Part shown: positions 1,604 to 59,531 of the stretch, piece after piece
Layout: each line of letters begins with the position of its first letter
Position numbering within the stretch: position 1 is the stretch's first letter
From: Desulfotomaculum sp.
GTDB taxonomy: Bacteria; Bacillota; Desulfotomaculia; Desulfotomaculales; Desulfohalotomaculaceae
Direction: 5' to 3'
NCBI GenBank assembly: GCA_017656165.1
Contig: JACDOL010000001.1
Coordinates: forward strand, 1-64,000
Length of the DNA: 64,000 nucleotides
Program-made: the position numbers and the translations under genes
Notes under the pieces: generated by a model
The model's database searches: none
What the model was told of the DNA's origin: nothing
The model's input: the letters and a program-made list of their open reading frames with translations, nothing else

Positions 1604-1633
1604 TGCTGTCATTTTCTCCGGTAAATAACTTAG
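1604..1633 (-). repeat. Degenerate 5'-part copy of terminator-associated repeat family (copy I)
   Basis: Minus strand reads CTAAGTTATTTACCGGAGAAAATGACAG, matching CCAAAGTATTTACCGGAGAAAACGATAG of the full copy at 37363. Confidence 0.6.
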
Positions 1634-8767: not shown

Positions 8768-8971
8768 TGAAAATACCTCCTCATATCATTTTTGTTTATT
8801 TTAAATAATTAAGGGATAAATATAGTTTGAACCACCTCCTTGTATTATGGACATATGTTTATCTTGAATGGATTAAATTACTGTATTCTATAGTATTTTA
8901 AAAATTCCTTTCAATAAAAATGTTCAAATAACTGACATCAATAAACATTCTTTCATAAAAATGTAAAAAAA

Positions 8972-9077
8972 TTACACTCCAAAAATACGCCGGAACATAT
9001 ACTTTAGAATGCTTAAGCTGCCGAACGCCTGCCAAACTCGTCGCTTCGCTCCTCTAACATACCCGGTGTTCTGATAT
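8972..9077 (-). repeat. Terminator-associated repeat family, copy A (internal 5' deletion)
   Basis: Minus strand: TCAGAACACCGGGTATGTTAGAGGAGCGAAGCGACGAGTTTGGCAGGCG...AAGTATATGTTCCGGCGTATTTTTGGAGTGTAA; aligns with the interior and right part of the copy at 37363. Confidence 0.7.
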
Positions 9078-9080
9078 AGT

Positions 9081-9117
9081 AAAAACAAAGCCCGCTCCAG
9101 GCGGGCTTTGTTTTTAC
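9081..9117 (-). terminator. Intrinsic terminator of the hydrogenase operon
   Basis: AAAGCCCGC-loop-GCGGGCTTT flanked by T/A tracts on both strands. Confidence 0.9.
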
Positions 9118-15222: not shown

Positions 15223-15245
15223 AAGTTTACAATAAAGTTGTATAA

Positions 15246-15268
15246 GGACTCGTTTAGAGTCCTTTTTT
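15246..15268 (+). terminator. Intrinsic terminator of yebC
   Basis: GGACTC-GTTTA-GAGTCC TTTTTT. Confidence 0.85.
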
Positions 15269-15276
15269 GCGTTAAT

Positions 15277-15372
15277 CAGAAAACGCATCCAAGGTATTTA
15301 CCGGAGAAAGTTCATTCAAGTATATGTGCCGGCGTGTTTTCGGAGTGTAAATACCTTGGCGGTGATAAGACC
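15277..15372 (+). repeat. Terminator-associated repeat family, copy B (71-bp short core)
   Basis: Core 15289-15359 ccaaggtatttaccggagaaagttcattcaagtatatgtgccggcgtgttttcggagtgtaaataccttgg, then cggtgataagacc; terminal inverted repeats. Confidence 0.9.
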
Positions 15373-15613
15373 GTAGGTTTTTTAATGTACTTTCTTAAAA
15401 AACTGCTTACACTGCCAGGCTAAAACTGTTAATAAAGGAAATTTAAGTATTAATTTAAGCATATGTCTTCCACCTGTATTATTTTCTAATACTTTATTCT
15501 TAAGACTTGTCTCGTGTGAATACCGTTACAAAAGGTATTAAATACACAACAAATGGAAAATATAGTAAGGCGCTGGCATATTTAACTAAAGAAATGTTCA
15601 GGAGGTTTTTTAA

Positions 15614-31515: not shown

Positions 31516-31550
31516 GGGCAGTTTTTAGGAACTGCCCTGTATTATTTTTA
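31516..31550 (+). terminator. Intrinsic terminator of the yteA-like gene
   Basis: GGGCAGTTTTTAGGAACTGCCC then TGTATTATTTTTA. Confidence 0.75.
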
Positions 31551-31552
31551 TT

Positions 31553-31637
31553 GGGGAGGAAAAGCACCGGGTATGTTTGAGGAGCTATGTGCCGGCGTGT
31601 TTTTGGGAGTGTAAATACCTTGGCTGGTGATAAGACC
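31553..31637 (+). repeat. Terminator-associated repeat family, copy C (3' half)
   Basis: ggggaggaaaagcaccgggtatgtttgaggagctatgtgccggcgtgtttttgggagtgtaaataccttggctggtgataagacc. Confidence 0.85.
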
Positions 31638-31728
31638 AATGTCTTTTTCTTAAGGTAATTTGTGTTTTGCCTCTAATATGCTATATTATTATTATTTGGG
31701 AATAAATACTATCATGGGGGTTTTAACA

Positions 31729-36494: not shown

Positions 36495-36507
36495 TGACTA
36501 AGAACAA

Positions 36508-36604
36508 TACCTTTAAATCGGTCCTGTGAGGCTGGTAAGGGAACATAGTGAAATTCACATTGGGTCAAACTATGTCTATTACCAGCCGGTAATAGGCTTT
36601 TTTA
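36508..36604 (+). promoter_or_regulatory. PyrR-dependent attenuator 1 (upstream of pyrR)
   Basis: PyrR-loop-like TTTAAATCGGTCCTGTGAGGCTGGTAAGG; GGCTGGTAA (36530-36538) fully complementary to TTACCAGCC (36579-36587); terminator CTATTACC-AGCC-GGTAATAG-GCTTTTTT. Confidence 0.9.
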
Positions 36605-36610
36605 ATATTA

Positions 36611-36670
36611 TCAGAAAGCATCTGAGGTAACAACGCAGCCGGAGGAAAAGCACCGAGTATGTTTGCCGCC
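36611..36670 (+). repeat. Terminator-associated repeat family, copy D (internally deleted)
   Basis: TCAGAAAGCATCTGAGGTAACAACGCAGCCGGAGGAAAAGCACCGAGTATGTTTG; left end joined to interior at GCAGCC. Confidence 0.8.
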
Positions 36671-36697
36671 ACAGATGAAGAAGCGGAGGTGACCTAG

Positions 36698-37249
<552 letters not shown>

Positions 37250-37256
37250 AATGCAC

Positions 37257-37356
37257 TTCCTTTTAAATCGGTCCTGTGAGGCCGGCAAAGGAAGGGTTGA
37301 AAGTTGTGGCTCTTTTTTTGCTGGCCTCATCTCGGGTATCGAGATGAGGCTTTTTT
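37257..37356 (+). promoter_or_regulatory. PyrR-dependent attenuator 2 (pyrR-pyrB intergenic)
   Basis: TTTTAAATCGGTCCTGTGAGGCCGGCAAAGG; TGAGGCCGGCAAA (37277-37289) pairs with TTTGCTGGCCTCA (37317-37329) with one G-U; terminator GCCTCATCTCG-GGTAT-CGAGATGAGGC-TTTTTT. Confidence 0.93.
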
Positions 37357-37362
37357 ATACTG

Positions 37363-37577
37363 TCAGAAAGTATAAGTTTTGACGCAGCCAAAGTATTTAC
37401 CGGAGAAAACGATAGCCGGCAAATATTGGGGTTTGATTTATCAAACCCAGCAGCCGGAGGGAAAGTGCCGAGTATGCTTGAGCGACGAGCTGCACAGGCG
37501 CCCGGAGGCTTTAGCGTTTGTTCAAGTATATGTGCCGGCGTATTTTCGGAGCGTAAATACCTTGGCGGTGATAAGAC
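37363..37577 (+). repeat. Terminator-associated repeat family, copy E (most complete, about 215 bp)
   Basis: TCAGAAAG left end, CCAAAGTATTTACCGGAGAAA / TTTTCGGAGCGTAAATACCTTGG inverted repeats (37388-37565), internal hairpin GGGTTTGATTTATCAAACCC, right end GGTGATAAGAC. Confidence 0.9.
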
Positions 37578-37599
37578 AGAAGCCTTCTAATTATGAAAT

Positions 37600-47237: not shown

Positions 47238-47262
47238 ACTTTGTTCTTTGGATAACAACTGG

Positions 47263-47333
47263 CCAAGGTATTTACCGGAGAAAGTTCGTTCAAATATATG
47301 CGCCGGAGTGTTTTCGGAGTGTAAATACCTTGG
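47263..47333 (+). repeat. Terminator-associated repeat family, copy F (71-bp short core)
   Basis: ccaaggtatttaccggagaaagttcgttcaaatatatgcgccggagtgttttcggagtgtaaataccttgg; 4 mismatches over 71 nt to copy B. Confidence 0.92.
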
Positions 47334-47345
47334 CACTTAAGTTTT

Positions 47346-49553
47346 TTATTTTTTAACTTTTAACAGATTAACCAGCGATACCGCCGCTTCTGCCTTGGTT
47401 ATTTTTTTACCAGGATAAAACTTGTTATCTATTGGAGAAAGCAGTTTTAATCCCAGGCTGAGGGACGCGTACCCTTTCATTTCCGATGGCACTGAAGCTG
47501 CGTCTTCAGTATTCAGTAAATATATTTCTTCCAGTTCAGCAGCACCGTCATAGTCCAGGGCATTAATCATGAGCTGAGCCCATTCCAGCCTGGTTAACTC
47601 TTTGTTTAAATCAACGATTTCTCTTTTTTCGAGAATTCCCAGGTGCAGGGCAGCATCAATAATTTTTTCAGCATTTTTTTCGTATGGAATATTTACCTGC
47701 CAGCCGCGGGCTCCCACCAGCCAAGCCAACACTTCTAATTTCGTAATCTTTTTGTCAGGGTAGAACTTGTCTTCACTGCTCTTAATAATGTTTAAACTGG
47801 TCAAAAGATTAATATTCTCTTCCGCTGGGTGGCCGGAAATATCACTAAATTCCCTGGTTGGTTGGGGCGGCAGGGGTTCACCGCGCCAGTCAATAAAGCT
47901 GCCTGTATGGGCGTTTAAGAGGTGTGACGGCATATCCTTACAGTGGTAGACAAGATAAGTTTTCAGTTTTTCTTCTTTTTCCTGCAGGCGCACATAGCTT
48001 AAGTCTAGTTGTCCCTGTGACAAAAATTTATTAACCGCTCTTTCTTTATTAATTACCCCGGATGCTGGTGGGAAGTCAATGTTCCACCATTCCATGCGGT
48101 AGTAGGTAATTTCACCTGTCCAGGCATTAACTGTTATTTCAAACCCATTACCTGGATATGGAATGCCGTTTACTAACCGGGTAAAAGAAAAATGATAATC
48201 CCGGGGCATCACTTTTCCTTCTTTTAGATAAATATTATTAGCCCATGCACTTTCCAGCCTTATTTTTTTGTAATGTTCCGGCTGCATTTTTTTAATGAAA
48301 TCACTGGCCGCCTTTTCAGCCTGCTCCTGGGTATACTTAACTTTTTCTCCAGTTACTACACCGTTTTTAATTTGGAATTCATGTAAGCTGTTCCATTTAT
48401 TGAAAGATACAAGTTCTCCCGTTACTGCATCAATGCTGGTGTGGCAGCCGGAGTTTTCATCTTTCCAGTAAAATTTCCACAACAGCTGCTGGGGGTAGCG
48501 GTAATTTCTAGTTAACCGGCTTTCTGCTAATTTTTGTTCTTTGGCTATATTAATTATCTTTTCAGATGACTGCACGGCTTTTTCTGCACTGATAATGTTA
48601 TTATATTTTTCAACTTCTTTTATTTCTGCCGGGGTTAATGCTCTATCTTCTTTTACATCGGCACCCATTTCCTCACCTTTTCCATCTTGAAGAATGTGAT
48701 ACCTTGGAGATTCAATAACTTCTCCTGTCAGGGCGTTGATATACAGTGAACGGCCTTTGTTAACCTGGTAGGTTAAGATTACGGGAATGTCTTTTCTGTT
48801 GTAAGTATGAGGTGAAAAGTAGACCAGTTCCACTTGGCTGCTGAATATTTTTTCTGCTTGTCCCTTGGGAATTTTATTAACCGGCGATGGAAACTGCTCT
48901 GTTTCATTCCATTTTAAATTAAAACTAATCAGTTCTCCGGTGTAGGCATTGATGCCAATATGAATACTGTTTTCCGGGTATGAAATACCGTTAACAACCC
49001 GTATAAATTTGTAATAGTACTCAGCTGGCCTGCCAGGAGTCATAGACTGGTTATATTTTACAATTTCCATTTTGGTCTGGGGGTAATACTTGGGGGATAA
49101 TTTTTGGGCCCATTTTTTAGCCAGCTCAGCGGCTTCGTGGTAAGAATACTCAGGGAGTCTCGAGTATTTTCCCCCCGGGTTATGCTGTTTCCAGCAGTGC
49201 ATACCTGTTGTTTCGCCGCTGATGGCATTAATGCGTACTGAGATGCTGTCGTGAGGTTCCTTGCTGCGGTTCCAGTGCAGGTTCCATTCTATCCTGTCCC
49301 GGTAAGAATTTAAGCTGCTTTGAAACTGGTCATAATCTCCAGGAATGTTTATAACACTTTTTGCTTTTTTTATTGCCTCACTTAAAGATACTTTTGCCAG
49401 AGGAATTTCTTCAGTTTCTTTTGAAGTCTTTGGTGCTGCCATTTTTTGTACCGGGGCTGGACTAGTAATTTCGGCAAAACCCATCACAGGGCTGAGCAGC
49501 AGGCAGGAAGTTAGGGAGCCGGCAGTAAGATATAGTACTGCTTTTTTTAACAT
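47346..49553 (-). CDS. YcdB/YcdC (PepSY-like) repeat protein with C-terminal S-layer homology domains
   Basis: Signal peptide; repeated 'DAxTGELxSFN/INAxTGE' units; C-terminal SLH-like 'FSDISGHPAEENINLLTSLNIIKSSEDKFYPDKKITKLE'. Confidence 0.82.
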   Translation of the reverse strand: MLKKAVLYLTAGSLTSCLLLSPVMGFAEITSPAPVQKMAAPKTSKETEEIPLAKVSLSEAIKKAKSVINIPGDYDQFQSSLNSYRDRIEWNLHWNRSKEPHDSISVRINAISGETTGMHCWKQHNPGGKYSRLPEYSYHEAAELAKKWAQKLSPKYYPQTKMEIVKYNQSMTPGRPAEYYYKFIRVVNGISYPENSIHIGINAYTGELISFNLKWNETEQFPSPVNKIPKGQAEKIFSSQVELVYFSPHTYNRKDIPVILTYQVNKGRSLYINALTGEVIESPRYHILQDGKGEEMGADVKEDRALTPAEIKEVEKYNNIISAEKAVQSSEKIINIAKEQKLAESRLTRNYRYPQQLLWKFYWKDENSGCHTSIDAVTGELVSFNKWNSLHEFQIKNGVVTGEKVKYTQEQAEKAASDFIKKMQPEHYKKIRLESAWANNIYLKEGKVMPRDYHFSFTRLVNGIPYPGNGFEITVNAWTGEITYYRMEWWNIDFPPASGVINKERAVNKFLSQGQLDLSYVRLQEKEEKLKTYLVYHCKDMPSHLLNAHTGSFIDWRGEPLPPQPTREFSDISGHPAEENINLLTSLNIIKSSEDKFYPDKKITKLEVLAWLVGARGWQVNIPYEKNAEKIIDAALHLGILEKREIVDLNKELTRLEWAQLMINALDYDGAAELEEIYLLNTEDAASVPSEMKGYASLSLGLKLLSPIDNKFYPGKKITKAEAAVSLVNLLKVKK

Positions 49554-54442: not shown

Positions 54443-54483
54443 AAGGGTAGAGTTCATTTAGATAATTGAACTCTACCCTTTTC
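54443..54483 (+). terminator. Intrinsic terminator of the Ca2+ ATPase gene
   Basis: AAGGGTAGAGTTCA...TGAACTCTACCCTT TTCTT. Confidence 0.85.
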
Positions 54484-54491
54484 TTGCTGTA

Positions 54492-54541
54492 TCAGTTTTG
54501 ATGCAGCTAAGGTATTTACCGGAGAAAACGATAGCCGGCAA
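54492..54541 (+). repeat. Terminator-associated repeat family, copy G (5' part)
   Basis: tcagttttgatgcagctaaggtatttaccggagaaaacgatagccggca; matches copy E 5' part. Confidence 0.85.
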
Positions 54542-54548
54542 GTTTAAT

Positions 54549-59325: not shown

Positions 59326-59337
59326 TATAACATTTTA

Positions 59338-59369
59338 AATACCCTTCCACTGCTGGGAAGGGTATTTTT
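59338..59369 (+). terminator. Intrinsic terminator of the aminotransferase gene
   Basis: AATACCCTTCC-loop-GGAAGGGTATTTTT. Confidence 0.85.
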
Positions 59370-59377
59370 CATAATAC

Positions 59378-59418
59378 CAGAGTATAAGTTTTAACCCATC
59401 CAAGGTATTTACCCGAAG
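59378..59418 (+). repeat. Terminator-associated repeat family, copy H (5' part, degenerate)
   Basis: cagagtataagttttaacccatccaaggtatttacccgaag; matches copy E CAGAAAGTATAAGTTTTGACGCAGCCAAAGTATTTACC. Confidence 0.8.
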
Positions 59419-59531
59419 TTTTTTAAATTTGAAATTAAGCATTTTGACATGATAATTAGAGGAATTTAAAATTTAAAGTAGAAAATCTATCTTTATGGTA
59501 AATAATCATTACAATAGTACTAATATTTTAG

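Follow-up and report, generated by a model that had tools for sequence, protein, structure and literature searches.

A dispersed hairpin repeat of Desulfotomaculum sp. is a probable non-autonomous mobile element that inserts at intrinsic terminators

The genome of Desulfotomaculum sp. (G000; 2.29 Mb in 169 contigs) contains a dispersed non-coding repeat, which probably represents a non-autonomous mobile element with a functional hairpin core, inserted by an enzyme acting in trans and having, in this species, the T-tract of intrinsic terminators as its target. The repeat was noticed in a stretch of 64,000 nucleotides, referred to here as the window, and it was originally predicted to be either a MITE-like element or a structured RNA. 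Non-coding mobility is well supported, by empty sites, terminator targeting, deletion derivatives and the target duplications of relatives; as to the structured RNA, a conserved fold is present and the two readings are not exclusive, but there is neither site-level repair in G000 nor a constant gene neighbour, which argues against a host regulatory RNA. The repeat family and its mobility are firmly established, as are the terminator targeting and the covarying core found across the order; the targeting and the order-wide distribution are additional to what had been observed at first. Searches of the literature, either for repeats in connection with terminators or for those of Desulfotomaculum, yielded no description of the element.

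A search of the whole of G000 gave 55 blastn matches to window:37355-37585, with E-values down to 1.6e-117; with partial queries, the 5′ part and the 3′ part each gave at least 40 matches and the middle 31. A covariance model (R1), built from 12 copies of three genomes, gave 59 matches in G000, and the union of the blastn and R1 searches amounts to about 106 places, whose flanks were all inspected; these are short, dispersed, intergenic copies or fragments of 60-230 bp, most of them truncated. Thus the search for further copies genome-wide bears out the proposed family, and all nine segments first listed as related are among these places; two of them are family members of reduced size, that at 1604-1633 on the minus strand being a 27-nt fragment and that at 36611-36670 a short core. 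For the copy preceding pyrB, which is indeed present, the span had been given too small, the real one extending from 37357 to near 37584. Against about 106 places in G000, three copies were found in G002, two in G003 and none in G001.

Table 1. Copies of the repeat in the window and the terminators adjacent to them.
Feature	Position	Strand	Remarks
Fragment (AAGTTATTTACCGGAGAAAATGACAGC)	1604..1633	-	
Copy with 5′ end ACTATATCAG followed by the core and the 3′ half	8964..9080	-	
Terminator hit by the 8964-9080 copy	9081..9109	-	
Terminator hit by the 15271-15377 copy	15244..15268	+	
Internally deleted short copy, with end GATAAGACCGTAGG and second T-tract 15378-15383	15271..15383	+	Site empty in G001 and G002
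Deleted copy after terminator 31516-31537; 3′ end GGTGATAAGACCAATGTCTTTTT at 31626-31648	31545..31648	+	
Short degenerate copy between the terminator of the first PyrR attenuator and pyrR	36611..36683	+	Core CAGCCGGAGGAAAAGCACCGAGTATGTTTG alone clear
Second PyrR attenuator terminator, stem-loop and T6	37323..37356	+	From sequence; hairpin -21.1 kcal/mol; insertion target of the copy before pyrB
Most complete window copy, before pyrB	37357..37584	+	R1 match 37386-37565, 153 bits; site empty in G002
Short copy with second-kind 5′ arm (GGATAACAACTGGCC) and minimal hairpin	47247..47347	+	
Terminator hit by the 54486 copy	54445..54482	+	
Copy, 5′ half	54486..54547	+	
Terminator hit by the 59370 copy	59337..59369	+	
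Copy reduced by internal deletion to 5′ arm and 3′ remnant ending in a T-tract	59370..59430	+	

In the window, Rfam identifies two PyrR attenuators (RF00515, at 36506-36606 and 37255-37358), and the first base of the pyrB-side copy directly abuts the T6 of the attenuator terminator. This copy is organised into a 5′ arm (37357-37386), a long hairpin (~37387-37566) and a 3′ arm, GATAAGACAGAAGCC (37570-37584). The degenerate copy upstream of pyrR is recognised by a blastn match at C1:36633-36665 (E = 2e-9); G001 and G002 are without a copy at this position.

Insertion next to terminators is the rule in the whole genome: 39 of the 43 G000 copies with an intact 5′ end of the first type start at most 20 nt downstream of an intrinsic terminator, defined as a T-tract preceded by a hairpin of at most -8 kcal/mol, and have the same orientation. 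Among random flank positions 33 of 1015 lie near a terminator; since this control was taken from all flank DNA, intergenic or not, the enrichment that it yields is to be taken as an upper bound. An intergenic location alone, however, could not produce so exact an abutment; in nearly all copies whose start is intact, the distance from the end of the T-tract to the first base of the element is 0-5 nt. The terminator stems vary from copy to copy, and therefore they belong to the host. The 5′ arms of the second type likewise follow T-tracts in G000 and, as judged by eye, also in two other families (G057 L316 and G105 L337). A non-coding element thus uses terminators as landing sites with very high precision; such sites can be regarded as safe, because an insertion just past the stop signal harms neither neighbour, and their targeting would limit the damage to the host.

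Synteny of the window was compared with stretches of G001, G002 and G003, and these three relatives are without most of the window copies. At the sites of the copies starting at 15271, 31545, 37357, 54486 and 59370, and of the minus-strand copy at 8964, the relatives having a comparable site carry the terminator and no recognisable copy; the exception is the pyrR-pyrB site, where G001 carries an unrelated palindrome. At 15271, G002 reads GAGTCCTTTTTTTAGTTTC and G000 reads GAGTCCTTTTTTGCG, the element and GTAGGTTTTTTAATG, and the sequence past the second T-tract of G000 aligns with that past the sole T-tract of G002. Similarly, at 37357, G002 has GAGGCTTTTTTATGTAAAAAACTG where G000 has the element, and it keeps the same terminator; at both sites a single T-tract aligns with the flanks in the relatives. 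The occurrence of T-tracts on both sides of the element would be as expected from duplication of a T-tract target, but these tracts are of low complexity and are no proof of it. The pyrR-pyrB spacer of G003 (L167) contains TTTTCACTGATAAGACAGG / TTTTCACTGATAAGACAGGGGGTTT, which may represent the two joined ends of a lost, nearly fully deleted copy; if this is the case, the terminator-type ends are older than the genus.

Identical internal-deletion junctions occur in sets of 7, 6 and 5 copies whose sites are unrelated, the first set showing no microhomology, and the junction of the 15271 copy is common to copies at other sites. As the same junctions recur at unrelated sites, the deleted forms were themselves copied, and therefore movement needs the outer parts only. 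Among 728 cells of stem pairs compared within G000, 1 was compensated and 29 were broken, about one double change being expected by chance; the fold is therefore not maintained at individual sites. A composite locus was also observed on contig C146 (L294, minus strand 431-387), in which a putative group II intron 3′ end (ACGTACGGTGGTGTGAGAGGAC...) is fused to the 3′ half of the repeat, an arrangement suggestive of an intron lodged inside the repeat.

Each full copy folds as one long imperfect hairpin. The internal hairpin that had been proposed is supported by the fold of the 37357 copy, which is stronger than chance (z = -3.9; 0/200 shuffles); folding also persists under DNA parameters (z = -4.3), and copies from three genomes and two genera, folded separately, share a common shape, with z from -3.5 to -5.9. 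Proceeding inward, the outer stem, in which GCCAAGGTATTTAC pairs with GTAAATACCTTGGC, gives way to the symmetric internal loop CGGAG/CGGAG; a second stem follows, then the inner part and the apex GCGCC...GGCGC. The core is about 170 nt long, with a conserved inner part having CCGAGG-type purine loops and the apex TGTTTGAGcgaagCGAGTT; the sequence of the inner stem varies between genera. The long terminal inverted repeats of the original prediction correspond to real pairing, which is that of the outer stem (37387-37400 with ~37551-37566), and not to the outer ends of the element; indeed, in G000 the element extends past the outer stem by ~30 nt on the 5′ side and ~18 nt on the 3′ side, and no inverted repeats were seen at its outer ends. 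Two kinds of 5′ arm are found in G000, ACACTATCAGAAAGTATAAGTTTTGAYGC and TTTAGGAAATTATGCTTTTTTAGATTTGTGGATAACAAC; the 3′ arm, GGTGATAAGACCGAAGG, has a T-tract after it in 35 of the 52 intact 3′ ends, and the ends of the element read ACACTATCAG... and ...GAAGG-T6. The second-type 5′ arm (e.g. window 47247-47260, L337 and the copies of G000 contigs C40 and C48) includes a DnaA box in reverse complement, TTGTGGATAA; this arm is partly conserved in G105, which belongs to another family.

At the DNA level, a search of 61 near relatives gave matches in G000 and its genus only, plus traces in two genomes. The covariance model was run on 114 genomes of the order, 27 of which, from 15 of 55 genera, gave full-length matches at E ≤ 1e-4 (values that are rough, owing to a short calibration). 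The relatives form species-specific, dispersed multi-copy sets, often of 5-24 copies per genome, which are lower bounds, as 24 candidates at most were scored per genome; all 14 copies sampled in other genomes are intergenic. The inner sequence is conserved across genera. A covariance analysis had been suggested as a check, and paired bases do covary between lineages: in an alignment of 56 core matches, which is fitted to the structure, 49 of 55 pairs have changed on both sides, the covariation score is 0.527 versus 0.171 for shuffled alignments and below 0.08 with slid partners, and the outer helix is 97% paired, with several base-pair types at every pair. The tendency is the same when 12 copies are aligned by MAFFT with no use of the structure: both partners have changed in 11 pairs, and one shuffle among 500 reached an equally high value. 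No match was found by blastn of the G000, G064 and G011 copies against plasmids or of the G023 copies against phages, and the exact core pattern is absent from the viral contigs searched; a search of genome contigs with the core pattern returned the MES5 assembly and two single matches, these two being taken as chance. Hairpin elements also occur as tandem arrays, with a 229-bp period in L311:6420-7280 (G066 C45) and one of ~214 bp in L032:1447-1979 (G003). Distant hairpins at L162:1460-1560 (G060) and L133:1500-1680 (G006) share only the apex TGTTTGAGCGAA(A)GCGAGTT, which resembles the right-end hairpin of an IS605-type element in L036 (CCTGAGCGAAGCGAAGAGAGG).

Among the relatives, one core is associated with several kinds of element ends. 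The ends of class (i), found in G064, G066, G067, G057, G035 and G011, are 15-bp inverted repeats, GATTCCGCTGAAAAA or GTTTCCCCTGAAAAA. When duplications were scored from the anchored ends, perfect 6-bp target duplications were present in 5 of the 11 copies for which the two ends could be identified (swapped controls, 2 of 110), and 7 of the 11 match at 5 or more of 6 positions (controls, 13 of 110); the perfect duplications are TAGATA, TAATTA, TAACTA, TAATGA and TATTTA, with TANNTA as the general pattern. In G088, G030, G039 and G073 the ends consist of a small hairpin with GGATGAAAA and TTTTCAGGRTAG. The sister species G001 has a dispersed palindromic repeat of its own, in at least 30 places (L172-L201, e.g. 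L172:1501-1672), with the form CATGCCGC..GCGGCACCATCAGGGGATGAAAAGC ... TTTTTCAGGGTAG, one copy of which sits in the pyrR-pyrB spacer; it was rejected as a member of the family, being unrelated in sequence and giving no match with the covariance model. Its ends resemble those of the hairpin elements of G088 and G073.

In the mechanism that we propose, an enzyme supplied in trans would insert the hairpin element; in this species the element would enter the T-tract of intrinsic terminators in a single orientation and come to be flanked by T-tracts; a recent multiplication to about 100 copies would have been followed by decay via internal deletion and mutation. The enzyme may be a recombinase or a transposase for which the folded hairpin, be it single-stranded DNA or RNA, is the recognition signal, and the 3′-side T-tract would be the target duplication; as a counterpoint, this T-tract, present in 35 of the 52 copies with an intact 3′ end, could be the element's own. 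The apex GCGAAGC forms a very stable DNA mini-hairpin, and symmetric GGA and tandem G-A loops are very stable in single-stranded DNA; with the fold obtained under DNA parameters, these motifs are no more than suggestive. To look for an autonomous relative with shared ends had been suggested as a check: no such partner, and no transposase with matching ends, was found among the loci examined or between matching element halves in the 169-contig genome. More tentatively, the repeats might form an order-wide class of mobile elements defined by the conserved folded core and not by the ends, in which the core would be the handle for the transposition machinery and one of several kinds of ends would be aimed at terminators. 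Should a recombinase indeed use the core in this way, a transposition system with folded nucleic acid as its recognition signal would be implied.

As for the enzyme, it is unlikely that the repeat is of the REP/PATE kind, with a hairpin-recognising Y1 transposase of the IS200/IS605 or RAYT type mobilising it in single-stranded DNA form. The hairpin shape, the stable apex and the fold under DNA parameters would agree with this explanation, as would the presence of two Y1 transposase genes in G000 and the ends of the G088 and G073 relatives and of the G001 repeat family (...GGATGAAAA / TTTTCAGGGTAG), which by eye resemble IS605 ends; however, the element flanks neither Y1 gene, and the target duplications of class (i) are unexpected for Y1 transposition. 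The two genes were also considered as the parent and rejected, there being no element ends beside either of them.

A structured host RNA or cis-regulatory element acting in place, such as a riboswitch, an attenuator or an sRNA, whose 3′ end (CCTTGGCGGTGATAAGACCGAAGGTTTTTT) would be a weak terminator competing with the outer stem, appears improbable. It would account for the very strong covariation and for the inner sequence conserved across genera, and the consensus 3′ end can form a hairpin with a T-tract, of -7.0 kcal/mol in the consensus-like copy C6:51190; but the majority of copies form this hairpin only weakly (mean -4.3 kcal/mol), most G000 copies are truncated, pairs are not kept at individual G000 sites and the syntenic copies are absent from relatives. 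Eight copies, each examined in a genome of a different genus, are followed by genes that have no relation to one another (MeaB, MerR, ABC, methylase, RimM, DctM, S49 peptidase, CarA), which argues against a pathway-specific regulatory RNA. Rfam has no match to the repeat at gathering or relaxed thresholds, so that a known riboswitch or other Rfam RNA was rejected, and the first impression that this is neither a known riboswitch nor a group II intron stands. The strong covariation is most likely due to selection on the fold of a mobile element and not to a host regulatory RNA; a large covarying hairpin family with mobile members and no Rfam entry calls for caution in RNA discovery.

There is also little to recommend a retroposon comparable to a bacterial SINE, for which a reverse transcriptase, possibly the one of a terminator-homing group IIC intron, would copy a U-tract-ended RNA at the T-tracts of terminators: it would fit the T-tract at both the 3′ end of the element and the target, the homing of group IIC introns to intrinsic terminators, a reverse-transcriptase fragment at a contig end (start of G000 C12, L299:480-660) and a putative group II intron 5′ end (GTGCGCCCGGC) seen by eye directly after a terminator-like hairpin at C12, but the element ends are unlike intron ends, class (i) has inverted repeats and fixed 6-bp target duplications, as in DNA transposition, and the truncations are internal and not 5′. 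The reverse transcriptase was rejected as the parent, since it is a fragment at a contig end and has no link to the element.

The probable mobile element described here can be compared with several known systems. Prokaryotic MITEs include BOX, RUP, SPRITE, Chunjie/Nezha, CIR and Correia elements (PMC10969869). The present repeats are similarly short, non-coding, dispersed, intergenic and foldable, with truncated derivatives, and the class (i) relatives have terminal inverted repeats and target duplications; unlike ordinary MITEs, and in the reverse of their arrangement, the interior is conserved across genera while the ends vary, the outer ends in G000 are not inverted repeats, insertion occurs into terminator T-tracts and the autonomous partner was not found. 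REP/REPIN sequences, associated with RAYT, and the PATEs of IS200/IS605 are also multi-copy extragenic palindromic hairpins, and Y1 genes are present in this genome; however, REPs are short palindromes with a GTAG foot, whereas here a single hairpin of ~170 nt is found, and the palindromes flank neither Y1 gene, which differs from the flanking of the RAYT gene. Group IIC introns share the insertion directly after intrinsic terminators in a fixed orientation (here 39/43 versus 33/1015), but the element is devoid of the GUGYG 5′ end and 3′ AY, of domain V, of a reverse transcriptase and of any Rfam group II match. Finally, the palindromic elements of Rickettsia are likewise mobile palindromic repeats, of ~150 bp; these enter genes in frame, whereas the repeats of Desulfotomaculum sp. 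are strictly intergenic and aimed at terminators.
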